Assembly (NCBI GenBank): GCA_021778575.1
Contig: JAJYCH010000046.1
Location: 1-10,028, forward strand
DNA length: 10,028 bases
Direction: 5' to 3'
From: Planctomycetota bacterium
GTDB lineage: Bacteria; Planctomycetota; Planctomycetia; Isosphaerales; Isosphaeraceae
This document shows positions 1 to 10,028 of the stretch, piece after piece (position 1 is the stretch's first letter; each line of letters begins with the position of its first letter). The position numbers were made by a program, and so were the translations under genes. The notes under the pieces are model-generated. The model searched no databases. It was not told where the DNA came from and saw only the letters and a program-made list of their open reading frames with translations.

Positions 1-288
1 ATCGCGAACCCGCCGCTCGATCCGCTGCGAGCGATCGATCTTGATCGAGTTCAGCGCCGCCTGATCGATCATCCAGACATGAACTTCATTTTGCGGTTTA
101 TAGGTCTCAAAAAACTCGCTGCTACGCTGACGGATCAAGGCCAGATCCTCGGCCACGACGACCGACGAACAAAGCCCATGCTTCAACGAATTCGCGCGTG
201 AGTTCGCCTTTCCTTCGACGGTCCGAGGACCGGTGGAAAGCTGAGAATTTCGCCGATTCGCCTCAATTCGCGCGGGGGAAACGATCAT
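1..288 (-). CDS. Conserved planctomycete protein of unknown function, 5' part only
   Basis: The minus strand is open from an ATG at 288 to the window edge (96 codons, no stop), so the C-terminus is missing. The start is supported by GAGG seven bases upstream. The N-terminus reads MIVSPARIEANRRNSQ, followed by LSTGPRTVEGKANSR and then ANSLKHGLCSS. Next comes a predicted helical, charged stretch, including EDLALIRQRSSEFFETYKP and VWMIDQAALNSIKIDR. I recognise the STGPRT..EGK..SR.N.LKHGL pattern from a widespread planctomycete family that is annotated only as hypothetical; this is from memory and untested here. No signal peptide or membrane segment is visible. The basic, Asn/Arg-rich N-terminus could suit a nucleic-acid or phosphate contact, but no function can be assigned. 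It is divergent from the riboswitch-controlled gene on the plus strand. Confidence 0.8.
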   Translation of the reverse strand, partial: MIVSPARIEANRRNSQLSTGPRTVEGKANSRANSLKHGLCSSVVVAEDLALIRQRSSEFFETYKPQNEVHVWMIDQAALNSIKIDRSQRIERRVRD

Positions 289-570
289 GATCAAGCCTCG
301 AAACAGAGTTGGTGAACGACAACGGCACCAACGTCATATTTCGCGATTGGGGCGGCGGGTTAACACACTTTCCGACGGATTCGGCCTGGCCAAGTCGTTC
401 TGTCCAGGCATCCCCAACCGCCTCGGCGGGAATTGGAACGGTCCCGGTTGGAGTCCTTCGTTGGAATCCATCCCTGTTTGGAATCCTTTAGTCGACAAAA
501 TCGTTAAATTCGGCCAATCGACAGGCCGATGATAGAGATGGTCTCGGCTCATGATCTTTGCCGATTCCAG
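289..570. other. Intergenic region without a recognised gene
   Basis: The stretch separates the divergent left-edge gene from the fluoride riboswitch. Short open frames exist on both strands, but their translations look like random high-GC sequence (Arg/Pro/Ser rich, no family resemblance), and none has a convincing ribosome binding site. The promoter for the riboswitch transcript must lie near the right end. I saw no clear -35/-10 pair and do not mark one. Confidence 0.5.
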
Positions 571-632
571 GGCGATGGAGTTCGCCTACCATAGAACCGC
601 CCCCAAAAGCGTGGGGCTGATAACTCCTACCT
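571..632 (+). promoter_or_regulatory. Fluoride riboswitch aptamer (crcB motif)
   Basis: The sequence carries the hallmarks of the crcB/fluoride aptamer in order. GGCGATGGAGTTCGCC (571-586) contains the GGCG/CGCC stem (571-574 with 583-586). The linker TACCATAGAACC follows. A GC stem GCCCC (599-603) / GGGGC (613-617) closes a nine-base loop, and the 3' element CTGATAACTCCTACC follows it. Loop bases GGAGT (577-581) are exactly complementary to ACTCC (623-627), which is the expected pseudoknot. The arrangement closely matches the Bacillus cereus crcB leader as I remember it. The family binds fluoride through Mg2+ ions and normally turns on fluoride exporters or fluoride-tolerance genes. Here the only gene immediately downstream encodes a predicted outer-membrane protein. 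Motif and pairings are seen directly; ligand identity is inferred from family membership. Confidence 0.95.
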
Positions 633-672
633 AGAGGTTCAAGTACCTCCAGGTAGGAGTATTTCTTTTTCG
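623..672 (+). terminator. Intrinsic terminator of the fluoride riboswitch (expression platform)
   Basis: A perfect 10-bp inverted repeat, ACTCCTACCT (623-632) and AGGTAGGAGT (651-660), continues inward past one A/C mismatch into GAGGT (634-638) / ACCTC (645-649), closing a six-base loop. It is followed at once by ATTTCTTTTT (661-670), a U-rich tail. The 5' arm overlaps the aptamer's pseudoknot strand ACTCC (623-627), so terminator and ligand-bound aptamer cannot form together. This predicts transcription stop without fluoride and read-through with fluoride. The hairpin ends 26 bases before the ATG of the next gene, inside the leader, so it controls that gene rather than ending an upstream one. 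Confidence 0.92.
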
Positions 673-685
673 AAGGGAAGTGATC

Positions 686-1828
686 ATGGAGCGCTGGCGA
701 TCGGGTCATCCGCAAATTCGGCGGGCGCGTTTCAGGCTGTTCGCGGTCTTCGCGGTGTTCGTCATTGCGATGTCCGGAGGTTGCTCCATTGTCGACCGGC
801 CGAAGCTGACACCGGCGAGCGAGGCGACCCAAACGCCTCCTTCCGCCGTGAGGGTTCGAGCCCAAAGTGAGGAACCGCCGACTGGGTCAGTGGCCCCGCC
901 GTCCAGTCCGGTTGCCTCGAACCTGGCGGCGTCCAGGATTTTCAGGGGGGGAGCGCTCGATACGGCGCTGGAGTCGTTGTTCGGCGAAGCATCGACTTCG
1001 GATTGGACGCCCCTGTCGTTTGCCACCCTCTTCACGGAGGGATGGAACCAGCCGTTCGTGTTCTCTCCGCCGAGCGACTCCGGCGCGCTTCGACAGGAGT
1101 GGATCAACGCGGCCAATGGCGTCTTCTACCGTCAGTCGGTACTCAACTACAATTTCCGGGATCAGGCGACTTCCGCAGGGAATCGCAATATTGGCACTTT
1201 TACGATTTTCGCACCATTGAGCCGACGGCTCGAACTGAACATCTCGATCCCGTTCGTTGACGATCGCGCCGTCGCTCATTCGTCGGCTTCGGGCGGGAGC
1301 CGGGCGAGTTTGAATTCGAGAACCTCCTATCAATCGACCTTCGGTGACTTCACGATCACGCCGCAGGTGATGCTCAGCGAGACCAGGAACACATCGATCA
1401 TGTCGGTGCTCGCGATTCGGGCTCCGCCTGGATCTCGTGCCGCAGGCGATGGCGGTACGTCACTCGGGCCGCAGCTTCAGTTCTGGCAAGGCTTACCGAA
1501 CCGCTGGGTGGTCCGTGGTGGTGCAGGCCCGACGGTTCCACTGACGGCGACGGGATTGCATACGACGTTTGACACAAACTTGACGATCGGCCGGTTCCTG
1601 ACGCTCGACGATGCGCGGTACTTCAAGCAACTCTCGGTCTGGGTCGCGGCCAATAATTCGGCGGCCATGGATCACAGCGGCCCGGCGGTCGATTTCATGA
1701 CGATCCTGCCGGGCATCCGGTTCCTCATCGCCAAGAATACCTGGTTCCTTTACGGGGTCGAGATCCCGCTGGTCGCCCCTCGAAACGAGGATTATGGTAT
1801 GTACTTTAGTTTGGTCAGGCGATGGTAA
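686..1828 (+). CDS. Predicted outer-membrane beta-barrel protein under fluoride riboswitch control
   Basis: The product has 380 residues. ATG at 686 is preferred over an in-frame GTG at 680 because GGGA (675-678) lies seven bases before the ATG. A basic N-terminus and hydrophobic segment (about residues 15-30) end in SGGC, so Cys33 could be lipidated. The -3 residue is Ser, so the lipobox is not canonical. A Pro/Ser/Ala-rich linker reaches about residue 85. From about 145 onward there are amphipathic strand-like segments, such as IGTFTIFAP, RLELNISIPF, FGDFTITPQVML and FLYGVEIPLVAP. The chain ends in FSLVRRW, a C-terminal aromatic typical of outer-membrane barrels. The pattern resembles a planctomycete transporter-annotated family related to the MetA-pathway phenol-degradation porins (PF13557-like); this is recognition, not a search. 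Substrate is unknown. The fluoride riboswitch suggests a role in the fluoride response. Confidence 0.85.
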   Translation: MERWRSGHPQIRRARFRLFAVFAVFVIAMSGGCSIVDRPKLTPASEATQTPPSAVRVRAQSEEPPTGSVAPPSSPVASNLAASRIFRGGALDTALESLFGEASTSDWTPLSFATLFTEGWNQPFVFSPPSDSGALRQEWINAANGVFYRQSVLNYNFRDQATSAGNRNIGTFTIFAPLSRRLELNISIPFVDDRAVAHSSASGGSRASLNSRTSYQSTFGDFTITPQVMLSETRNTSIMSVLAIRAPPGSRAAGDGGTSLGPQLQFWQGLPNRWVVRGGAGPTVPLTATGLHTTFDTNLTIGRFLTLDDARYFKQLSVWVAANNSAAMDHSGPAVDFMTILPGIRFLIAKNTWFLYGVEIPLVAPRNEDYGMYFSLVRRW

Positions 1829-1860
1829 GACGAACCCATTTCCGGCTCTGCGTTCTCCTG

Positions 1861-1909
1861 GCGGTAAGGCGTAGGGTGGGCTCGGCGGGGCACCCCCGGA
1901 AAATCCGGG
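1861..1909 (+). repeat. GC-rich hairpin region starting with GTAGGGTG
   Basis: The gap between the outer-membrane gene and the methyltransferase holds GTAGGGTGGG (1871-1880). Its GGGTG (1874-1878) can pair with CACCC (1891-1895). A second small inverted repeat follows: CCCGGA (1895-1900), loop AAA, TCCGGG (1904-1909). No T-run follows, so it is not a classical terminator. The GTAGGGTG head recurs on the minus strand at the 5675-5705 hairpin, which suggests a degenerate dispersed intergenic repeat. Confidence 0.4.
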
Positions 1910-1971
1910 CAGACTCCCACTCTGGGTGCAATCGCTCGACGCGGCGGATCGATTCGGGGAAGATTGAGGGG

Positions 1972-2892
1972 ATGTCACGCCGGCGAAACCTCTCGGGGAT
2001 CGAGCGGCGGGCAACTTTCGCTGGAGACCCATCGTTGAGCGCGGCGAGCCCTTCAAAAATTCCCGTTCAGTCGCGGACGCAATCCGCCTATAGCTTCCAG
2101 TGGAACACTTTCCGGATCGTCCGGCCCGAGGAAGACCGCGCGACCTTCCAAAACCGGACCGGTCTCGACCCGATCGACCTGGCGGGCCAGACCGTGCTCG
2201 ACGCCGGTTGTGGGATGGGCCGTTACTTGCGGGTGGTGGCTGAAGCGGGAGCGGTCGCCGTCGGGATGGACCTCAGCCGCGCCGTCGAGGCGGCTCGCGA
2301 CCAGACCCGCGAGTATCCCGGAGTCTCGGTCGTCCAGGGCGACCTGTTGCGTCTGCCGTTTGCCGATGGGTCGTTCGACCAGATTTACTCGCTCGGAGTT
2401 CTCGACCACACGCCCGACCCTCGTCGAGCGTTCCTCGGCCTGGCGAAGCTGCTCCGGCCCGGCGGTCGGATCGCGATCTGGGTTTACCCGCGCGAGAAGC
2501 CCCGGCTGGAGACGATCATCAACATTCACCGAGCGATCTCCCGGCGGCTCCCGCTGGGCGTCCTGGTCCCGTTCAGCCGCCTGATGGCTCCGGTGGGAGG
2601 CTTGAAGCGTCGGCTGATGGCCAGTCCGAACCGGCTGGTGAGCAAGGCCGGTGTCGCGCTGAACCTCCTGACGATCGGCGTCTCGATGCACCCCGACCCC
2701 GAAGTTCGCGTCTGCGACACCCTCGACTGGTACGCCCCACGCTATCTCTCACGCCACACGCCGGAAGAGGTCCGAGGCTGGTTCGAGGAAGCGGGACTGG
2801 TCGATATCATCGACCTATCCACGCAACAGAACTTCTTCCACGCCGGGCAAGGCAACGGAGTCAACTTCGCGGGTCGGCGGCGTGAGGGGTGA
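1972..2892 (+). CDS. Class I SAM-dependent methyltransferase (Methyltransf_11-like)
   Basis: The protein has 306 residues counted from ATG 1972. It has the full seven-strand fold signature: motif I VLDAGCGMGRYL (about 75-86) binds SAM, the acidic GMDLS (Asp100) should contact the ribose, QGDLLRLPF (122-130) is motif III-like, and LLRPGGRIAIWVY (160-172) follows strand 5. The segment SRTQSAYSFQWNTF before motif I recalls methyltransferases that follow a Trm112-like zinc domain, but no such domain is present. The substrate is unknown. The start is uncertain. The frame is open back to an ATG at 1822 that overlaps the previous stop, but that extension looks non-coding. TTG 2035 has the best ribosome site (GGAG, eight bases before) and would give 285 residues. 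The gene is co-directional with the outer-membrane gene, with a 143-bp gap. Confidence 0.85.
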   Translation: MSRRRNLSGIERRATFAGDPSLSAASPSKIPVQSRTQSAYSFQWNTFRIVRPEEDRATFQNRTGLDPIDLAGQTVLDAGCGMGRYLRVVAEAGAVAVGMDLSRAVEAARDQTREYPGVSVVQGDLLRLPFADGSFDQIYSLGVLDHTPDPRRAFLGLAKLLRPGGRIAIWVYPREKPRLETIINIHRAISRRLPLGVLVPFSRLMAPVGGLKRRLMASPNRLVSKAGVALNLLTIGVSMHPDPEVRVCDTLDWYAPRYLSRHTPEEVRGWFEEAGLVDIIDLSTQQNFFHAGQGNGVNFAGRRREG

Positions 2893-2953
2893 GGCAGACT
2901 AGGGCTGAGATCGGGTATAGCTCTCGATTCTGGAACTTTTCGGCAGAACCCTA

Positions 2954-2982
2954 CTCGTTCCCACGCACCGCGTGGGAACGAG
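2954..2982. repeat. Perfect 13-bp palindrome (dispersed REP-like element)
   Basis: CTCGTTCCCACGC (2954-2966) and GCGTGGGAACGAG (2970-2982) are exact reverse complements around an ACC loop. I recognise this palindrome as a high-copy dispersed element in planctomycetes and some other bacteria, often seen as SFPRGAWERV-like peptide tails when read into genes. It lies at the point where the fourth LRR copy loses homology, so it probably marks the insertion or rearrangement breakpoint. As a strong hairpin between the plus-strand methyltransferase and the minus-strand LRR array, it may also slow or end transcription in both directions. No T-run follows on the plus strand, where the next bases are ATTAAACT. 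Confidence 0.85.
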
Positions 2983-3038
2983 ATTAAACTGATCGAGAAC
3001 CAGCGGCGTCGGCGTTTCGGCGGGGTGGGTTCGGTCAT
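2983..3038 (-). pseudogene. 5' stub of a fourth LRR membrane-protein gene
   Basis: On the minus strand an ATG at 3038 begins MTEPTPPKRRRRWFSISL, the same cytoplasmic anchor start as in the LRR genes (MTDPTPPRRRRR and MESPTPKRRRRWFSISL). Bases 2986-3020 are identical over 35 bp to 4122-4156 at the start of the neighbouring LRR gene. Homology stops at about 2985, where the palindrome begins. The frame then runs on into ISFPRGAWERV and unrelated sequence to a stop near 2742, antisense to the methyltransferase. There is no complete membrane segment and no LRR, so this is a remnant. It begins 48 bp after the ancestral stop of the preceding LRR gene, the spacing expected of a former tandem copy. 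Confidence 0.8.
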
Positions 3039-3086
3039 GGGGGTTCTCTTCGAGGGTCGAGTGATCAGAGGATCGGGGTCGAATCT

Positions 3087-3211
3087 TCACCGTTTTCGTC
3101 GGCGGCGAATGGGAAAATTCGGGCTGATGTTCACATTAACACCGGGCCTCTCGGCCTGAAACTGGGCGATGTCGGCGTCGCTCAGATCCCCTTTCGAGAA
3201 TGACACTGAGA
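3087..3211 (-). pseudogene. Orphaned 3' coding tail of the frameshifted LRR gene
   Basis: Removing one copy of the 11-bp duplication at 3244-3265 restores a frame that continues LPMNKEG into LDHLRKLPNLISVSFSKG, then DLSDADIAQFQAERPGVNVN and ISPNFPIRRRRKR, stopping at a TGA (3089-3087). This is what an LRR-family C-terminus should look like: a last LRR, then an F-x-AERPGV segment equivalent to TFRKARPGVTI in the paralogue. The stretch is therefore former coding sequence now lying beyond the premature stop at 3212-3214. It would lengthen the protein from 319 to about 357 residues. Confidence 0.85.
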
Positions 3212-4171
3212 TCAGATTTGGCAGTTTACGAAGATGGTCCAATCCCTCCTTGTTCCCTCCTTGTTCATTGGAAGTCCGGGCAGTTGAAGCATTACCAGGT
3301 TCGTCAGTCGATCCAGGCTGACGAGTCCTCGACCGGTCAGGCTTGTTGGCAGGATGATCGATAAGGTTTTCAGTTGGACCGAGGATTGAAGTTGCGACAG
3401 CCCCTCGTCAGTCAGCTCCTGACCGCTGAGGGACAAGGACTCAAGATCGCGAAGCTGTCCGATCTTTTTCATATGAGCATCAGTCACGGAATCGCTGCCG
3501 ATCGTGAGTGACTTGAGCCGGGGCATCTTGTCGAGGAATGTCAGATCGGTATTCCCGGATTCCTCAAATTGCACGTTGAGATTTTCGAGGTTCGTGAGCC
3601 GCTCCAGCCATTTGAGGCCGTCGGCGTCGAGGTTCCGAGAGAGGCTCAAGACCTTGAGTCGATCGAGCCGCTCCAACCGGGCCAGGCCTTCGGCCTTGAG
3701 TGGGAATCTGGTCGAAAGGACGAGTGATTCGAGCCGGTCCAGATGATCGAGGCAGGCCAACTGATCTTCCTCGATCGGCTGGACGACCAGTTGCTGATAC
3801 GCGAGATCGATCTTCGCCTGTTTCTCGAAGAAGTCGGTATCGTCGTCCGCTGCAACATTGGGTTTGCTAAACTGAGCGGGGAGAGCTACTTGCGTGACTT
3901 CCTGGAAATATTCATCACCCAGAATCTTTCGAAGACAGACGGGGCCGGAAGGGCTCGCCCCTGGCTTGGTAAGCGAGATGTATCCGGTGTATTGCCAGTC
4001 ATAGACAACAGTCCCTTTCAGTTGCTCGATCCTCGCGACCGCTCGCCGCTGAAGGCTCGCCCGCCTGGCCTTCCAGCCCATCAGGCCACCGAGCACCAGG
4101 ATCAATAACATCAAGCCGCGCAAACTGATCGAGAACCAGCGGCGTCGGCGTTTCGGTGTCGGGGATTCCAT
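3212..4171 (-). CDS. Membrane-anchored LRR protein, C-terminally truncated by frameshift
   Basis: The product has 319 residues from ATG 4171, chosen because GAGGT lies about nine bases upstream and the start then aligns with the paralogues. A GTG at 4186 would add five residues. MESPTPKRRRRWFSISL is followed by one transmembrane segment (about 18-33, LRGLMLLILVLGGLMG), then KARRASLQRRAVARIEQ and the family segment VVYDW and GDEYFQEV. LRRs of the RNI/internalin-like type start near residue 120, with units such as LERLTNLENLNV, LDKMPRLKSLTI and DEGLSQLQSS. The basic stretch before the membrane segment suggests N-in and an LRR domain outside the cytoplasm. The last residues (TRRDWTIFVNCQI) are frameshift product. 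It starts 20 bp after the stop of the preceding LRR gene, so they probably share a transcript. Function is unknown; LRRs of this type usually mediate protein contacts. Confidence 0.85.
   Translation of the reverse strand: MESPTPKRRRRWFSISLRGLMLLILVLGGLMGWKARRASLQRRAVARIEQLKGTVVYDWQYTGYISLTKPGASPSGPVCLRKILGDEYFQEVTQVALPAQFSKPNVAADDDTDFFEKQAKIDLAYQQLVVQPIEEDQLACLDHLDRLESLVLSTRFPLKAEGLARLERLDRLKVLSLSRNLDADGLKWLERLTNLENLNVQFEESGNTDLTFLDKMPRLKSLTIGSDSVTDAHMKKIGQLRDLESLSLSGQELTDEGLSQLQSSVQLKTLSIILPTSLTGRGLVSLDRLTNLVMLQLPGLPMNKEGTRRDWTIFVNCQI
3244..3265. repeat. 11-bp perfect tandem duplication causing a frameshift
   Basis: CCCTCCTTGTT occurs twice in direct succession (3244-3254 and 3255-3265; AACAAGGAGGG on the coding strand). 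Eleven is not a multiple of three, so the duplication shifts the frame of the LRR gene. The frame entered after it ends within 13 codons, while the frame with a single copy keeps LRR-like sequence for about 50 more codons. This points to a replication-slippage event. Confidence 0.95.
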
Positions 4172-4190
4172 CACATAGGACCTCACTGGT

Positions 4191-5630
4191 TCATTTTTGG
4201 CTGGGAATTGACACGGCTGGGCCAGATTTGATGGTCACGCCAGGTCGGGCTTTCCGGAAAGTTTCCAGCCCTTCCTGAGTGACCTGCGTCCCTCGGACCC
4301 GGAGGAACTCCAGTTTCACCGCCCCCTGGAGCGATTTGAGCCCGGCATCGGTGAGCGGTGTTTCGTCGAGGCTGAGGAACCTCAGCTCGGGCAGAGTGGC
4401 GAGGATCGCCGCTCCGGCGTCGTCAATCGTGGTGCCGTCGAGACCCAGCCACCGGAGCCTCGTCTGGGCGCTGAGCGCCGGGAGTCCTTCGCTGGTGATG
4501 CTGGTTCCCGACAGGTTGAGTTCCTGAGTCTGATTGTTGGCGGCCAGATTTTTGACTCCGGCATCGGTCACGCCCGCTCCGGAGATGGTCATCCGCAACA
4601 GATTCAAACCCTTCAAGCGGGCGAGTCCGGCGTCGGTGACGTTGGGCGCGGTGAGACAGAGCGTGTCGAAGCCCTGGAGCTTGCTCAGACTGGCGAGTCC
4701 TCGGTCGGTCATTTGGGGGAGCGGGTCGAGATAGATCCCCTTCAGCGACCCGATCGCGTCCAGTTTGGCGAGTCCGACCTCGGTCAGCTTCGAGCCGTCG
4801 ATCAGCACGACTTGCAACTTGGGAAGCTTTGCCAGTCGATCCACGCCCGCGTCGGTTACCTGGGTCCGTCGGAGGTCCAGTTTATTCAGTTCGGTGAGGT
4901 TGGCGAGATAATTCAGGCAAGCATCGTCGGTTGGTGAATTCATGAGCATGAGATTTTCGAGCCTGGTGAGCTTCGCCAGCGGAGCCAGGTCGGCGGGATC
5001 GGTCAGGTCGACCTGCGTCAATTCGAGCCGATTGATTCGAGGCTGCCGGGCGATCCGTTCGAGCCCTCGGACCGTGATCGTGTCGGGCTTCGCCCGCAAG
5101 ACCAGACTCTCGATCGCCGGCGAGGATTCGAGACAAGCCAGACCCTCGTCGGTCACGTCAACGAACAAGAGGGTAACTTCCTTGAGCCGGGGCATCGCCA
5201 TCAGCCGGGCGAAATCGGCATTATCGAGCGGATAGCGGATCGTCTGGAGCATCTCGACCCGGTCGAGCAATGCGACGGTTTCGAACAGCTTCGGATCATG
5301 TTTGATCTCTTCAACCGGGTTTTTGTTGTTGAGGAAGACCCAGGCAACGTCCTGAAAATACTCCGGGCCAACCGACCGGCGGAGCCAGTCGGGAGCCCAG
5401 GGATGGGGCGGGTCGTTGATCCATTTCCCGGATTTTTTCCGAGCCTCGACGGCATAATCGTACTGGACCCTCCCTCCCGCCGCCGTGATCACCGCGACCG
5501 CCTGGCGCTGAAGACTCGCCCGCCGGGCCTGCCAGCCCAGAAATCCACCGACGATCAGGACCAGGATCATCAAGGTTCGAAGGCTCAGGGCGAGTCGGCG
5601 TCGGCGGGGTTTCGTGATCGGTTCGCTCAT
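4191..5630 (-). CDS. Membrane-anchored LRR protein (RNI-like repeats), intact
   Basis: The product has 479 residues from ATG 5630. GGAGG lies eight bases before this ATG and itself falls inside the five-codon extension from an upstream ATG at 5645, so 5630 is preferred. MSEPITKPRRRRLALSLRTL leads into a transmembrane segment (about 13-32, ending VGGFLG), then WQARRASLQRQAVAVITAAGG and VQYDY. A spacer with GPEYFQDVAWVF comes next. LRRs run from about residue 125 to the end, many with the TDAGL/TDEGL signature (VTDEGLACLES, VTDAGVDRLAKL, LTDAGLKSLQG). The C-terminal GLETFRKARPGVTI cap is shared with the next paralogue. No catalytic domain is visible. It is the middle gene of a tandem array and lies 112 bp after the upstream copy. 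It is probably an extracytoplasmic binding or scaffold protein (inference). Confidence 0.9.
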   Translation of the reverse strand: MSEPITKPRRRRLALSLRTLMILVLIVGGFLGWQARRASLQRQAVAVITAAGGRVQYDYAVEARKKSGKWINDPPHPWAPDWLRRSVGPEYFQDVAWVFLNNKNPVEEIKHDPKLFETVALLDRVEMLQTIRYPLDNADFARLMAMPRLKEVTLLFVDVTDEGLACLESSPAIESLVLRAKPDTITVRGLERIARQPRINRLELTQVDLTDPADLAPLAKLTRLENLMLMNSPTDDACLNYLANLTELNKLDLRRTQVTDAGVDRLAKLPKLQVVLIDGSKLTEVGLAKLDAIGSLKGIYLDPLPQMTDRGLASLSKLQGFDTLCLTAPNVTDAGLARLKGLNLLRMTISGAGVTDAGVKNLAANNQTQELNLSGTSITSEGLPALSAQTRLRWLGLDGTTIDDAGAAILATLPELRFLSLDETPLTDAGLKSLQGAVKLEFLRVRGTQVTQEGLETFRKARPGVTIKSGPAVSIPSQK

Positions 5631-5674
5631 GGCTCGGGCCTCCATTCGAGGGAAGGTAGTTGGGATCGCTCGCC

Positions 5675-5701
5675 GGTGCGTCTTCGACGCCTCGACGCAC
5701 C
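5675..5701. repeat. Inverted repeat GGTGCGTC/GACGCACC between LRR genes
   Basis: GGTGCGTC (5675-5682) and GACGCACC (5694-5701) are exact reverse complements around an 11-base loop. On the minus strand the element begins GTAGGGTGCGTCG, similar to GTAGGGTGGGCTCG at 1871 on the plus strand. It sits in the 112-bp gap between two LRR genes. There is no T-run on the transcribed strand, so it looks like a dispersed repeat rather than a terminator, although it could affect mRNA processing. Confidence 0.65.
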
Positions 5702-5742
5702 CTACAAATACTTGATCTTACAAGTATACATATCCAAAGGCA

Positions 5743-7173
5743 TTAGCGGTCTGGTATCGGCTCGATCGGTCCTGATTTGACCATCACTTCCGGCCTGGCC
5801 TTCCGGAACGCTTCGAGACCTTCCGGAGTGACTTTCGTTCCACGGACTTCGAGGAAACGAAGACTCTTGTTTTGCTGGAGAGCGTCCAGGGTTGCGTCGG
5901 TGATCGAGGTTTCATCCAGGCTCAAGAACGCGGTGGAAAGCGTGGCCAGTGTCGCCGCTCCGGCGTCGTCAACCCTGGTGCCGTCGAGGCTCAGCCAGCG
6001 CGGGCCGGGCCGGTTTTCGAGGGCTTTCAGGCCGGTGCTGGTGACGCTGGTGCCTGAGAGGTCGAGTTCCAGGATCTCGTTGGCGGTGACCAGATGCTCG
6101 AAGCCAAGGTCGGTCACGCCCAGGCCCGAGACCGTGATTCGCTGGAGCTTCAACCCCTTCAAATGGGCGAGACCGGCATCGGTGACGTTCGACGCCGTCA
6201 GGCAAAGCGTCGATAGCGAGTTGAGCTTGTCGAGCGAGGCGAGGCCGGCATCGGTCAGGCTTGGCAGTGGTTCGAGGTACATCTCTTTGAGTGTTGGGAT
6301 GGCCGCCAGCCGGGCGAGTCCGGCCTCGGTCAATTTCGAGCCGTCGAAGAGCGCACTTTCGAGCTTGTCGAGCTTCGCCAGCGTCTCGACGCCCGCGTCG
6401 GTGAGGAGGGTCGAGCGGAGGTCGAGTTGCTTCAGCGACTTCAGGTCTTTGAGATGCCGTAGACAGCGATCGTCGGGCGGCGAGGGATAAAGATAAAGCG
6501 ATTCGAGTTGGCTCAATTTCGCGAGCGGGGCCAGGTCGTCGGGATTGGGAAGATTGATCTTGAGCAGTTCGAGGCGCTTGAGCCGAGGCTGACGGGCGAT
6601 CGCGACCAGGGCTCGACCCGTGAGAATCCCTTGCTTCGAGCGGATCGACAGTTCCTCGATCGCCGGCGCGAACTCCAGGGAATCGAGCCCGGCGTCGGTG
6701 ACCTCCACATCGAGCAGGCCCAGCGCCCGAAGTCGTGGCATGGCCATGAATCGGGCGAAGTCGCGATCGTCTAGCGGATATCGAAGCATGTCGATAGCTT
6801 CGACGGTATCCAACGTCGTCACGGCTTCATAAATCGCCGGGTCATGAGGCGGCTCGACTTTCGGGTTATTGTTCTGAAAAAAGACCCAGGAGACTTCCTG
6901 AAAAGACTCTTCGCCCATCGAGGTCCGGAGCCAGCCGGGAACCCAGCGCGGCGGATTCCGGGTGAATTTCCCGGTCTGCCGGCTCGCCGCGATCTGATAG
7001 TCATAAAGCACCGAACCGCCGGCCGCCGTGATCTTCGCGACCGCCTGCCGCTGGATCGACGCCCGTCGGGCCTGCCAGCCCAGGAATCCACCAATGATCA
7101 GGACCAGAATCATCAACGTTCGGAGGCTCAAGGCCAGTCGGCGTCGGCGCCTGGGCGGGGTTGGGTCGGTCAT
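5743..7173 (-). CDS. Membrane-anchored LRR protein (RNI-like repeats), first of the tandem array
   Basis: The product has 476 residues if translation starts at ATG 7173 (MTDPTPPRRRRRLALSLRTL), which aligns exactly with the starts of its paralogues. In-frame ATGs at 7188 and 7227 would add 5 or 18 residues. No strong ribosome site decides between them. The transmembrane segment is at about 13-32 (MILVLIIGGFLG), followed by WQARRASIQRQAVAKITAAGG and VLYDY, the GEESFQEVSWVF segment, then LRRs to the end (LTDAGVETLAKL, LTDAGLASLDKL, VTDAGLAHLKGL, VDDAGAATLATL). The C-terminus reads GLEAFRKARPEVMVKSG. It aligns nearly residue for residue with the 4191-5630 product over the anchor, so the two are recent tandem duplicates. 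It is divergent from zwf and presumably carries the array promoter upstream. Function is unknown; an extracytoplasmic interaction role is likely. Confidence 0.88.
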   Translation of the reverse strand: MTDPTPPRRRRRLALSLRTLMILVLIIGGFLGWQARRASIQRQAVAKITAAGGSVLYDYQIAASRQTGKFTRNPPRWVPGWLRTSMGEESFQEVSWVFFQNNNPKVEPPHDPAIYEAVTTLDTVEAIDMLRYPLDDRDFARFMAMPRLRALGLLDVEVTDAGLDSLEFAPAIEELSIRSKQGILTGRALVAIARQPRLKRLELLKINLPNPDDLAPLAKLSQLESLYLYPSPPDDRCLRHLKDLKSLKQLDLRSTLLTDAGVETLAKLDKLESALFDGSKLTEAGLARLAAIPTLKEMYLEPLPSLTDAGLASLDKLNSLSTLCLTASNVTDAGLAHLKGLKLQRITVSGLGVTDLGFEHLVTANEILELDLSGTSVTSTGLKALENRPGPRWLSLDGTRVDDAGAATLATLSTAFLSLDETSITDATLDALQQNKSLRFLEVRGTKVTPEGLEAFRKARPEVMVKSGPIEPIPDR

Positions 7174-7435
7174 GAGGTGTTGATCCATTTCCGGGGGGAA
7201 TCCGGCTTCAGAAACTCTCGACGACAATTGTCAGACGGCAATGTTACACGATGCGAGGGGTTGATGGGAGCGGTTGCTTCGGAAAACCGATGGAATGGGG
7301 GTTGCGGTGGTCCCTTGATCGGGCGGGCGGTTGGACATACCCTTCTGTTGCGGAATTCCCTCATCCGGATCTGGCCGGAGGGGGATTGTCAGAGGCGTTC
7401 ACGCCGATCATCGAGACCCGTCGGAGCCCAAGGGG
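7174..7435. other. Divergent intergenic region between the LRR array and zwf
   Basis: This 262-bp stretch must hold the promoters for both the leftward LRR genes and rightward zwf. I found no confident -35/-10 pair, operator palindrome or RNA element. The zwf frame stays open back to an ATG at 7331, but the added 35 residues lack resemblance to the family. Confidence 0.4.
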
Positions 7436-8986
7436 ATGAGCGACCTGTCGGCCATTGCCGAATCCAACCCGTTGCGTCAGGCCCTCCCCCGAGCCAAGGT
7501 TCCGGAACCCTGCTCGATCGTTCTGTTCGGGGCGACGGGTGACCTCACGCACCGCAAGCTCGTCCCGGCGCTTTATCATCTCGACCAGGCGGGGCACCTG
7601 CCTGGCGAGTGCGCCATCGTCGGCTTCGCCCGCCGCGACTGGTCCGACCAGCAGTTTCGCGACGAGCTGAAGAAGTCGCTCGCCAACCCCAAGGACGGCG
7701 GCTTCGAGGAGTCGTGGACCGAGTTCGCTCCGAAAATCTTTTATAACGCCAGCAACTTCGACGATCCGTCCGGCTATCGGAAGCTCAAGGAACAGCTCGA
7801 CAAGATCGACGGGACCCACGGAACCCGGGGCAACCGGCTCTTTTACCTGGCGGTCTCGCCGGAATATTTCTCGGTGATCGTCGAGCAGTTGGGCCAGGCC
7901 GGGCTGATCTACAAGGACGACGAAGGCCCCTGGAGCCGCGTGGTCATCGAGAAGCCGTTCGGCCACGACCTGGCCAGCGCCCTGGAGCTGAATCGCGACG
8001 TTTCTCGGGTCCTCCGCGAGGATCAGGTTTACCGGATTGACCATTACCTGGGCAAGGAGACGGTCCAGAACATCCTGGCGTTGCGGTTCGGCAACTCGAT
8101 GTTCGAGCCGCTCTGGGATCGTCGCTACGTCGAGTCGGTCCAGATCACGGCGGCCGAGGAACTGGGGATGGCCGGCGGTCGAGGCGGTTATTACGATACC
8201 TCGGGCGCGCTTCGCGACATGATCCAGAACCATCTGTTGCAGCTTCTCTGCCTGGTCGCGATGGAGCCGCCGGTCGACCTCGGCGCCGACGCCGTCCGGA
8301 ACGAGCGGGCGAAGGTTCTTCAGGCCCTGCCGATCTGGACCGCCGAGGAAGTTGAAAATCACGTCGTCCGGGGCCAGTACGTGGCCGGGTCGATCCAGGG
8401 GAAGGAAGTTCCCGGTTATCGCGACGAAAAAGGGGTCGCTGCCGAGTCGTCGACGGACACGTATGTCGCCTTGCGCGTGACCCTGAACAACTGGCGCTGG
8501 GCGGGCGTGCCGTTCTTCCTCCGGACCGGCAAGCGGCTACCGAAGCGAGCCACCGAGATCGCCATCCAGTTCAAGAAGCCGCCGACGAACCTCTTCGAGG
8601 TCGACAACGAAGCCAACGCCGGCGCGAACCTGCTGGTCCTCCGGATTCAGCCCAACGAAGGGGCGAGCCTGGCCTTCCAGGCAAAGATTCCGGGGTCGAG
8701 ACGCCGGCTTCAGGAAGTCCGGATGGACTTCCGCTACGGAACCGCGTTCGCCTCGCCGCCGCCCGAAGCTTATGAGCGTCTGCTGCTCGACGTCCTTCTG
8801 GGCGATCCGTCGCTCTATACCCGGACCGACGCGGTCGAGGCCGCCTGGAAGTTTGTCGACCCGATCCTCAAGGCCTGGGATGCCCCAGACGCCCCGAAGA
8901 TCCTCGACTACGCCGCCGGAACCTGGGGCCCCGAAGCCGCCGACAAGTTGACCGAAGGAACCGAGACCGAGTGGCGGCGGCTGTGA
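7436..8986 (+). CDS. zwf: Glucose-6-phosphate 1-dehydrogenase
   Basis: The enzyme oxidises glucose 6-phosphate to 6-phosphogluconolactone with NADP+, the first step of the oxidative pentose phosphate pathway, in the cytoplasm. The 516-residue product matches the usual length. The Rossmann motif is FGATGDLTHRKLVPALY (31-47). EKPFGHD (172-178) and the signature RIDHYLGKE (200-208) include the phosphate-binding His203. DMIQNHLLQL (261-270) contains the catalytic-base histidine His266. GGYYDTSGALRD and FFLRTGKRLP are further family blocks. ATG 7436 is chosen because GGAG (7423-7426) lies nine bases before it and the family's N-terminus fits; an upstream ATG at 7331 is open but unlikely. No 6-phosphogluconolactonase or opcA gene is visible nearby. 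It is followed after 21 bp by a HicB-like gene. Confidence 0.97.
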   Translation: MSDLSAIAESNPLRQALPRAKVPEPCSIVLFGATGDLTHRKLVPALYHLDQAGHLPGECAIVGFARRDWSDQQFRDELKKSLANPKDGGFEESWTEFAPKIFYNASNFDDPSGYRKLKEQLDKIDGTHGTRGNRLFYLAVSPEYFSVIVEQLGQAGLIYKDDEGPWSRVVIEKPFGHDLASALELNRDVSRVLREDQVYRIDHYLGKETVQNILALRFGNSMFEPLWDRRYVESVQITAAEELGMAGGRGGYYDTSGALRDMIQNHLLQLLCLVAMEPPVDLGADAVRNERAKVLQALPIWTAEEVENHVVRGQYVAGSIQGKEVPGYRDEKGVAAESSTDTYVALRVTLNNWRWAGVPFFLRTGKRLPKRATEIAIQFKKPPTNLFEVDNEANAGANLLVLRIQPNEGASLAFQAKIPGSRRRLQEVRMDFRYGTAFASPPPEAYERLLLDVLLGDPSLYTRTDAVEAAWKFVDPILKAWDAPDAPKILDYAAGTWGPEAADKLTEGTETEWRRL

Positions 8987-9007
8987 GACAAGGGGAGATC
9001 AACGCTG

Positions 9008-9244
9008 ATGAGCAAGCTTGCGAACACGGCGAATGAAATCCGCTATGAGTTGATTGTTTACTGGAGCGCCGAGGATCAAGCCTTCCTCGTTCAGGTTCCC
9101 GAACTTCCCGGCTGCGCGGCCGACGGATCGTCCTATCAAGAGGCGGTCGCGAATGCGGAGGTCGTCATTCGCGAATGGATCGAGACGGCTCAGGAATTGG
9201 GCCGACCTCTTCCTGAGCCACGTGGGCGGTTGATTTTCGCTTGA
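9008..9244 (+). CDS. HicB-like small protein (UPF0150 family), solitary
   Basis: This 78-residue protein has the HicB partial RNase H-like fold pattern: strand IRYELIVYWSAEDQAFLVQV, then VPELPGCAADG (30-40), then a helix SYQEAVANAEVVIREWIETAQ and the tail GRPLPEPRGRL. PELPGC..G followed by EA..NA is the family signature. HicB proteins normally neutralise a HicA mRNA-cleaving toxin, but no HicA-like frame lies on either side. The protein also lacks the C-terminal helix-turn-helix or ribbon-helix-helix domain of full-length HicB. It starts 21 bp after zwf, with GGAG ten bases before ATG, so it may share the zwf transcript. Solitary short HicB-like genes are common in planctomycetes and cyanobacteria, and their role is unclear. 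Confidence 0.85.
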   Translation: MSKLANTANEIRYELIVYWSAEDQAFLVQVPELPGCAADGSSYQEAVANAEVVIREWIETAQELGRPLPEPRGRLIFA

Positions 9245-9295
9245 GTTTGAACGTCACTTTCCTCTGAAACTGCTTGTCCAGAATGAGGCGAACTA

Positions 9296-9790
9296 ATGAC
9301 CGATCGACGAACCGATCTCAGAGGTCTGCCACTCGTGGTTCTCCTGTCCGTTGTCGCGCTCATGAACCCGGTGGGACCGGCAATTGCCGACGACCCCGCG
9401 CCGTCGCGGCAGGCGGCCAGGGATGACCTCAAGAAGCTCCAAGGGACCTGGGAATGCGTGGCGATGGAGCGCGAGGGGGACGCGATTCCCGCCGAGGCGT
9501 TCAAGGGGTCGAGCGTGGTCTACGAGGATGACCTGGCAACGCTCTATCGCGATGGTGAGTTCTTCCGCCGGGGGATCATCACCCTCGACCCGTCGAAGAC
9601 GCCCAAACGGATCAACACCTGGGATCTCGGCGGCCCTTACGCCGACGATTCCGTCCCGGGGATTTATGAGCTCGACGGCGACACACTGAAGATCTGCTTC
9701 TCTCGTCCCAAGGTCGCCCGGCCCACCGAATTTACCACCAAGAAAGACCCGGGATTTCTGTACGTGGTTTACAAGCGGAAGAAGCCGTGA
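9296..9790 (+). CDS. Secreted TIGR03067 domain protein
   Basis: The 164-residue protein has an N-terminal signal peptide (basic MTDRRTDLRG, hydrophobic LPLVVLLSVVALM) with a likely cleavage after AIA at residue 31. The mature part matches the planctomycete domain TIGR03067: LKKLQGTWECVAMEREG (46-61), a middle strand region SSVVYEDDLATLY, ITLDPSKTPKRINTWD (95-110), and VPGIYELDGDTLKICFSR (120-137), followed by RPTEF and a terminal VVYKRKKP. The domain is expected to form a small beta-barrel, lipocalin-like fold; function is unknown. The start is supported by GAGG seven bases upstream. It follows the HicB-like gene by 51 bp on the same strand and is 15 bp before the PIN-domain gene. Confidence 0.92.
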   Translation: MTDRRTDLRGLPLVVLLSVVALMNPVGPAIADDPAPSRQAARDDLKKLQGTWECVAMEREGDAIPAEAFKGSSVVYEDDLATLYRDGEFFRRGIITLDPSKTPKRINTWDLGGPYADDSVPGIYELDGDTLKICFSRPKVARPTEFTTKKDPGFLYVVYKRKKP

Positions 9791-9805
9791 TCGGAATGGA
9801 GTCGG

Positions 9806-10028
9806 ATGAAACCCAAGGTTTATCTGGAAACGACGATCCCGAGCTACCTGACGGCCTGGCCGAGCCGGGACCTGATCCGCGCCGCGCACCAGCAAAGTAC
9901 CCGCGAGTGGTGGGAATCTCGCCGAACCGCGTTCGAGCTTTATGTGTCGGAGGTCGTGCTGATCGAAGTGGCCGCGGGCGATCCGATCGCTGCGGCTGAA
10001 CGTCTCGACGTCTTGAAAGGCATCCCGG
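9806..10028 (+). CDS. PIN-domain VapC-type toxin, 5' part only
   Basis: ATG 9806 opens a frame that runs off the right edge (74 codons seen). GGAG lies four bases before it and GGA ten bases before. The start MKPKVYLETTIPSYL is characteristic of a PIN-domain subfamily annotated as VapC toxins. Glu8 takes the place of the usual first Asp, and VSEVVLIEVAAGDP (47-60) supplies the next acidic residue, Glu54. PIN domains cut RNA using an acidic metal site; the remaining acidic residues lie beyond the window. No antitoxin precedes it: the upstream gene is a secreted TIGR03067 protein. In this subfamily the partner is often a small downstream gene (recollection), so it may lie just outside. Reverse gene order or an orphan toxin are both possible. 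Confidence 0.88.
   Translation, partial: MKPKVYLETTIPSYLTAWPSRDLIRAAHQQSTREWWESRRTAFELYVSEVVLIEVAAGDPIAAAERLDVLKGIP

Follow-up and report, generated by a model that had tools for sequence, protein, structure and literature searches.

A fluoride riboswitch precedes a predicted outer-membrane β-barrel gene in Isosphaeraceae and points to a possible outer-membrane step of fluoride defence

The crcB motif, or fluoride riboswitch (RF01734), is described as an aptamer with a pseudoknot and an overlapping terminator, in which the ligand is predicted to raise expression (PMC2864571). In the available text of two papers (PMC11139923, PMC2864571), its recorded targets are fluoride exporters, K+/Cl- transport, Na+/H+ antiporters, pyrophosphatase, haloacid dehalogenase-like enzymes, enolase, formate hydrogenlyase and mutS. 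Here we analyse a 10,028-nucleotide stretch of DNA from a member of the Isosphaeraceae (Planctomycetota; contig JAJYCH010000046.1, positions 1 to 10,028; hereafter the window), in which the same aptamer, pseudoknot and overlapping terminator stand before a gene at 686–1828 (+) whose product, unlike the recorded targets, is a predicted outer-membrane β-barrel. The predicted fold is shared with Pput2725 (4rl8; 12% identity), a COG4313/Phenol_MetA_deg (PF13557) channel thought to carry hydrophobic molecules (PMC4493636), and with the FapF amyloid secretion channel (5o65 and 5o68; 13–14% identity); unlike Pput2725, the window protein has no PF13557 match and possesses a conserved N-terminal cysteine and a fluoride riboswitch. 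No described outer-membrane target of the fluoride/crcB riboswitch was found in the portions of the literature covered, which leave aside the tables of genes published by Baker et al. in 2012. Apparently, a known riboswitch class is found here with a new, recurrent target class, an undescribed extension of the regulon.

Riboswitch, terminator and barrel gene

The features of the locus are as follows.
562–636 (+), fluoride riboswitch aptamer RF01734, full-length match (cmscan, 54.2 bits, E 4.8e-13)
623–660 (+), intrinsic terminator hairpin, the switching element (-25.5 kcal/mol), whose ACUCC (623–627) is common with the pseudoknot
661–670 (+), U-rich tail of the terminator (from sequence and hairpin prediction)
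672–680 (+), probable ribosome-binding site GAAGGGAAG (from sequence only)
686–1828 (+), predicted outer-membrane β-barrel of 380 residues with the FapF/COG4313 fold, first gene after the riboswitch
782–784 (+), codon of Cys33, which follows a signal-peptide-like stretch and is a candidate for lipidation (conserved column)
1133–1822 (+), barrel-coding region, residues 150–379 (AlphaFold2 strands)

A sequence-only reading of this DNA had described a near-consensus fluoride riboswitch with a terminator ahead of the gene, and the Rfam covariance model bears this out: the match covers model positions 1–64, lies well above the gathering score of 34 bits and is the single Rfam match in the whole window at E up to 1. 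Its E-value, together with ten aligned cases, rules out a chance match. The aptamer comprises P1 (571–574/583–586), P3 and a pseudoknot of 577–581 with 623–627. The terminator hairpin starts 14 bases before the aptamer ends and leaves 25 bases between its own end and the ATG at 686, and the minimum-free-energy fold of 562–672 holds P1, P3 and the terminator (z -5.4). A promoter scan returned one weak site only, on the opposite strand. Aptamer and terminator are mutually exclusive because both need ACUCC, and this overlap gives the predicted logic of fluoride = ON, with an expression platform predicted to exclude the aptamer. Without fluoride, ACUCC would pair into the 623–660 terminator and transcription would end before the barrel gene; with Mg-fluoride bound, the pseudoknot would hold the ACUCC strand and RNA polymerase would read into 686–1828.

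Conservation of the switch was followed in 45 Isosphaeraceae genomes and in samples of 397 genomes of the class and 392 of the phylum, the two samples being drawn from larger groups. Ten Isosphaeraceae riboswitches that precede barrel genes align across both aptamer and terminator. The ten members all form each of the 13 named aptamer pairs, 12 of which never vary and thus give weak structural support; among the 13, the pseudoknot GGAGU-ACUCC (5/5 pairs) is invariant, and the TGATAACTCC form of the window aptamer recurs in 35 of the 117 examples from class and phylum. The terminator hairpin covaries: 87% of cells are paired against 39–56% when the structure is slid, 7 of its 15 pairs are altered on both sides, and the unpaired cells lie in the middle and upper stem. 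The structure counted was that of the window hairpin, a choice that biases the comparison against the slid versions, and the ten sequences include one group of three close relatives and one further close pair. In every one of the ten, the hairpin starts 14–15 bases before the aptamer end and is followed by a T-rich tail.

The β-barrel product proposed from the letters is recovered in a confident AlphaFold2 model of the 686–1828 product, which shows a 12-strand barrel with the fold of the COG4313/PF13557 type. At the sequence level, PF13557 does not match the window protein at E 1 and matches 24 of 62 aligned relatives (best E 1.3e-7), and a profile of the window protein run against PDB sequences returned nothing up to E 10. 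Among the 36 rows of alignment A2 with a residue in the Cys33 column, 34 have Cys; in the printed rows the lipobox context has Gly at -1 and Ser, Cys, Ala or Thr, not Leu, at -3. The barrel is probably lipid-anchored. Many conserved columns also fall in residues 90–148, ahead of the barrel-coding region. The window protein was rejected as a fluoride exporter of the Fluc/CrcB or CLC-F type, as it has no Pfam match and a predicted barrel fold.

Recurrence of outer-membrane genes behind the switch

The Isosphaeraceae set holds 19 fluoride riboswitches in 15 of the 45 genomes, 18 of them over the cut-off, and ten of the 19 stand before a barrel gene. Four of these genes encode the window barrel (G000) and relatives in G016, G024 and G025; a search for this family behind the switch in planctomycete genomes had been proposed in the sequence-only reading. 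The other six are Porin_O_P proteins (PF07396; G014, G017, G018, G019, G020 and G033), all above the Pfam cut-off with divergent matches of E 1e-8 to 1e-10. The remaining nine riboswitches precede CrcB (4), CLC, enolase, an NADH-dehydrogenase-like membrane subunit, a cytidylate-kinase-like protein and one weak dynamin-like match. The class sample yielded 72 riboswitch matches, of which 63 were examined (62 over the cut-off and G003:C118 under it; nine under it were left out), and an outer-membrane protein lies behind 14 of the 63: four of the window-barrel family, six PF07396, three Alginate_exp barrels (PF13372, E 1e-86 to 1e-89) and one PF02321. These gene classes were assigned by tblastn with seeds drawn from the same loci. 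The seed labels rest on Pfam except for the barrels, which themselves match no Pfam family and are labelled by likeness to the window protein; Pfam scans did not extend to every one of the CrcB, CLC and dynamin seeds.

The single PF02321 case (G264:C84, L128 2231–7000) has the riboswitch followed by genes for the PF02321 outer-membrane efflux protein, a PF16576 HlyD-type lipoprotein and a PF00873 RND pump, the last cut by the end of the stretch. An HlyD-type gene also stands behind another fluoride riboswitch (G243:C360, L143). A hairpin scan of the three Alginate_exp loci showed no aptamer-overlapping hairpin with a clear U-run, and the printed stem at the G264 TolC-type locus uses the aptamer ACUCCUACC and has a foot without a clear U-run. 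Four loci outside the Isosphaeraceae (L119, L124, L121 and L122) carry an AGGGG-like complement of the aptamer 3' strand without a U-run; translational control is therefore suggested there, and control at several non-Isosphaeraceae loci may be translational rather than transcriptional.

Porin_O_P and Alginate_exp genes stand directly behind fluoride riboswitches as the window barrel gene does, yet they belong to protein families different from it and thus represent separate links to the switch; the Alginate_exp and TolC-type cases are other protein families again, in another family of the class. Within the window-barrel family, a tree of 64 relatives rejects a single clade of the four linked barrels (approximately unbiased test, p 4.8e-37) and needs three changes of the linked/unlinked label, two of them forced by well-supported branches; this is a quick tree without bootstrap, with 16 of 121 relatives hand-picked, 14 duplicate rows and the fragments L202 and L203 dropped, and the first 300 residues of L050 cut. 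The six linked Porin_O_P proteins form one clade (SH-aLRT, an approximate likelihood-ratio support, 99) in a tree, likewise quick and without bootstrap, of these six, one paralogue and 22 others, five weaker matches having been dropped. The simplest reading is a repeated gain of the riboswitch link by the barrel family, and the simplest count would be about five separate recruitments of outer-membrane proteins to the switch.

The window barrel sits in a clade of its own, with relatives of 50–90% identity from metagenomes and other sources. In G016, G024 and G025 (L021, L022 and L030), a second barrel copy lies just upstream of the linked one as a tandem pair, the upstream copy in G016 reaching the contig end. 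Related barrels also occur, as one clade, in Methylococcaceae/Crenotrichaceae methanotrophs (Methylobacter, Methylomagnum and Crenothrix; L184, L187, L188, L191, L193 and L198), at loci where no fluoride riboswitch was found, some of them with little upstream sequence; judged from the tree, a transfer between phyla is possible.

The genomic surroundings bear on which gene the switch serves. Under stricter filters, nine of the ten Isosphaeraceae barrel genomes showed no fluoride riboswitch besides that of the barrel; four of the nine are at least 92% complete (G018, G020, G024 and G033), and the others are 68–89% complete, so a second riboswitch may be missed in them. CrcB is present in eight of these nine genomes, the exception being G025 (68% complete), and no fluoride riboswitch was found at a permissive threshold in the eight CrcB stretches of 3–4.5 kb. 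Because the sole detected switch precedes the barrel and the CrcB stretches have none, the riboswitch is assigned to the barrel rather than to an exporter, and in these genomes it would appear to control an outer-membrane protein. The possibility that an overlooked exporter is the real target did not hold up in the window: the nine of its open reading frames (ORFs) that were scanned gave no CrcB or CLC Pfam match, and CrcB, matched once in this genome, is on a different contig, where the surrounding 3.7 kb hold no detectable fluoride riboswitch. Collectively, riboswitch control of an outer-membrane protein, as first proposed from the letters, is well supported by the ten aligned cases, the covarying hairpin and the linked barrels not being one clade, with Porin_O_P, Alginate_exp and the TolC-type/HlyD/RND operon also behind the switch.

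G014 gives the plainest picture of the link: its porin and CrcB riboswitches are divergent and 203 bases apart. In G284, a 12-kb stretch contains four riboswitches, one for the Alginate_exp gene and three that precede genes for an antiporter, a SulP transporter and a phosphoesterase. Such fluoride islands, with three or four riboswitches within about 3–12 kb, are found at L121 (G284:C492), L136 (G202:C134), L029 (G014:C58) and L122 (G147:C62), and the genes behind their riboswitches encode an antiporter, a dynamin-like protein, CrcB, a MutS-like protein, phosphotransferase system (PTS) enzyme I, SulP, a phosphoesterase or a barrel.

A possible function of the barrel in fluoride defence

We favour, at a rough probability of 0.55, the reading that fluoride switches on an outer-membrane barrel, probably lipid-anchored, by transcription antitermination, and that the barrel serves an outer-membrane step of fluoride defence. 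The Isosphaeraceae and another family of the class would repeatedly have recruited unrelated outer-membrane families into the fluoride regulon for a shared purpose, a route for F- or another anion across the outer membrane, and CrcB/Fluc, itself not under a riboswitch, would deliver F- to the periplasm while emptying the cytoplasm. A cell-envelope step in fluoride handling, suggested earlier from the sequence, can fairly be inferred, because the switch covaries, the linked barrels are not a clade and several outer-membrane families lie behind the switch; the particular roles put forward in that reading, an exit for periplasmic fluoride or a substitute for a leakier porin, would be two hypothetical forms of such a step. 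A more specific form is two-membrane export, in which a presumably constitutive inner-membrane Fluc works with a fluoride-inducible, limiting outer-membrane channel from at least three barrel families, recruited independently; this we regard as tentative, a reasonable possibility that falls short of being probable. If it is true, periplasmic fluoride would leave the cell before re-entering as hydrogen fluoride (HF). Accounts of bacterial fluoride defence centre on the inner membrane and the cytoplasm, and unrelated outer-membrane channels placed repeatedly under the fluoride riboswitch would be a genetic hint that an outer-membrane step matters. The finding points to specific proteins for experiments and offers a first clue to function for barrels otherwise without one.

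Several observations weigh against a fluoride-related role of the barrel or against its generality. The N-terminus of Pput2725 lies inside its barrel, and the channel conducts only above about 150 mV (PMC4493636); by analogy, the conserved segment 90–148 of the window protein could be a barrel plug. Lumen-facing strand residues, guessed from hydropathy alternation rather than from coordinates, include 6 Lys and Arg versus 4 Asp and Glu among 75, which indicates no clear anion selectivity. None of 27 further Isosphaeraceae barrel loci (one per genome) has a fluoride riboswitch at a permissive threshold, and 24 of 27 barrel loci in contigs of relatives' genomes have none, some of these with little upstream sequence, the other three being G016, G024 and G025 again. 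A genome of the same genus, G044, has CrcB and a barrel relative and no riboswitch. Searches of the 397 class genomes and the 392 phylum genomes at E 1e-50 turned up no relative of the window barrel with more than 41% identity, and the pairing in the window barrel's own clade is therefore seen in one genome only. The label changes in the barrel tree might instead of repeated gains reflect an ancient link lost many times. In the rest of the phylum, where the 54 riboswitches over the cut-off were examined and those under it left out, no outer-membrane seed was hit. A dynamin-like match lies downstream of 16, an antiporter of 12, CrcB/DUF190 of 10 and CLC of 2, and 14 are unassigned. Pfam searches on nine of these 14 found no outer-membrane family, giving three Na+/H+ exchangers, a phosphoglycerate-dehydrogenase-like enzyme, a rubrerythrin-like domain and four without any match; of the remaining five, three lie within about 130 bases of a contig or stretch end and two are short ORFs. 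We infer fluoride transport by the barrel from its regulation only, because most barrel relatives are unlinked, Pput2725 conducts poorly and the lumen is not strongly positive.

The same regulation would also fit barrels that import phosphate-like anions or nutrients depleted by fluoride toxicity, or that replace leakier porins, rather than export fluoride. Six of the ten Isosphaeraceae cases are Porin_O_P, named phosphate-selective porins, and a 2024 review, in its available text, ties phosphate homeostasis, pyrophosphatase and phosphate importers to fluoride resistance (PMC11139923). However, these Porin_O_P matches are the divergent ones noted above, and neither the window protein nor the Alginate_exp barrels are known phosphate porins; we consider this explanation unlikely, if a serious contender. 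A general envelope response, in which fluoride induces outer-membrane parts of RND-type efflux or surface remodelling that do not move fluoride, would account for the G264 operon and for the HlyD-type protein of G243, but no pump gene is among the downstream ORF picks (three each at most) of the ten Isosphaeraceae barrel cases, and it appears improbable.

The shared fold raises a further option, a COG4313-type channel for hydrophobic compounds such as organofluorine substrates, whose breakdown would free the inducing fluoride; Porin_O_P and Alginate_exp also stand behind the switch, however, and are not known for such a role, which makes this decidedly improbable in our view. A different gene could also be the real target, with the barrel carried along. 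The candidate is an ORF at 1822–2892 (+) for an S-adenosylmethionine (SAM)-dependent methyltransferase (PF08241, E 2.5e-21; start perhaps at 1972), which is on the same strand, overlaps or closely follows the barrel gene and is possibly co-transcribed with it. No methyltransferase relative was found at the other barrel loci compared, whereas three further genomes have the barrel behind the switch, and in G024, one of these three, the ORF picked next lies on the opposite strand; we hold this explanation to be highly improbable. The favoured reading, an outer-membrane barrel induced by fluoride for a step of fluoride defence, is the one kept here.

Neighbouring genes and dynamin-like targets

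Beyond the methyltransferase ORF, the window carries three adjacent genes for leucine-rich-repeat proteins at 3212–7227 (-), followed by a glucose-6-phosphate dehydrogenase gene at 7331–8986 (+).

Dynamin-family GTPases are common behind Planctomycetota fluoride riboswitches, with 6 of 63 cases in the class and 16 of 54 elsewhere in the phylum (L122, L131, L136, L142 and many of L220–L251). Fluoride-metal complexes mimic phosphate in GTPases, and for this reason we propose, by analogy, that the dynamin-like genes behind the switch may compensate for GTPase inhibition.
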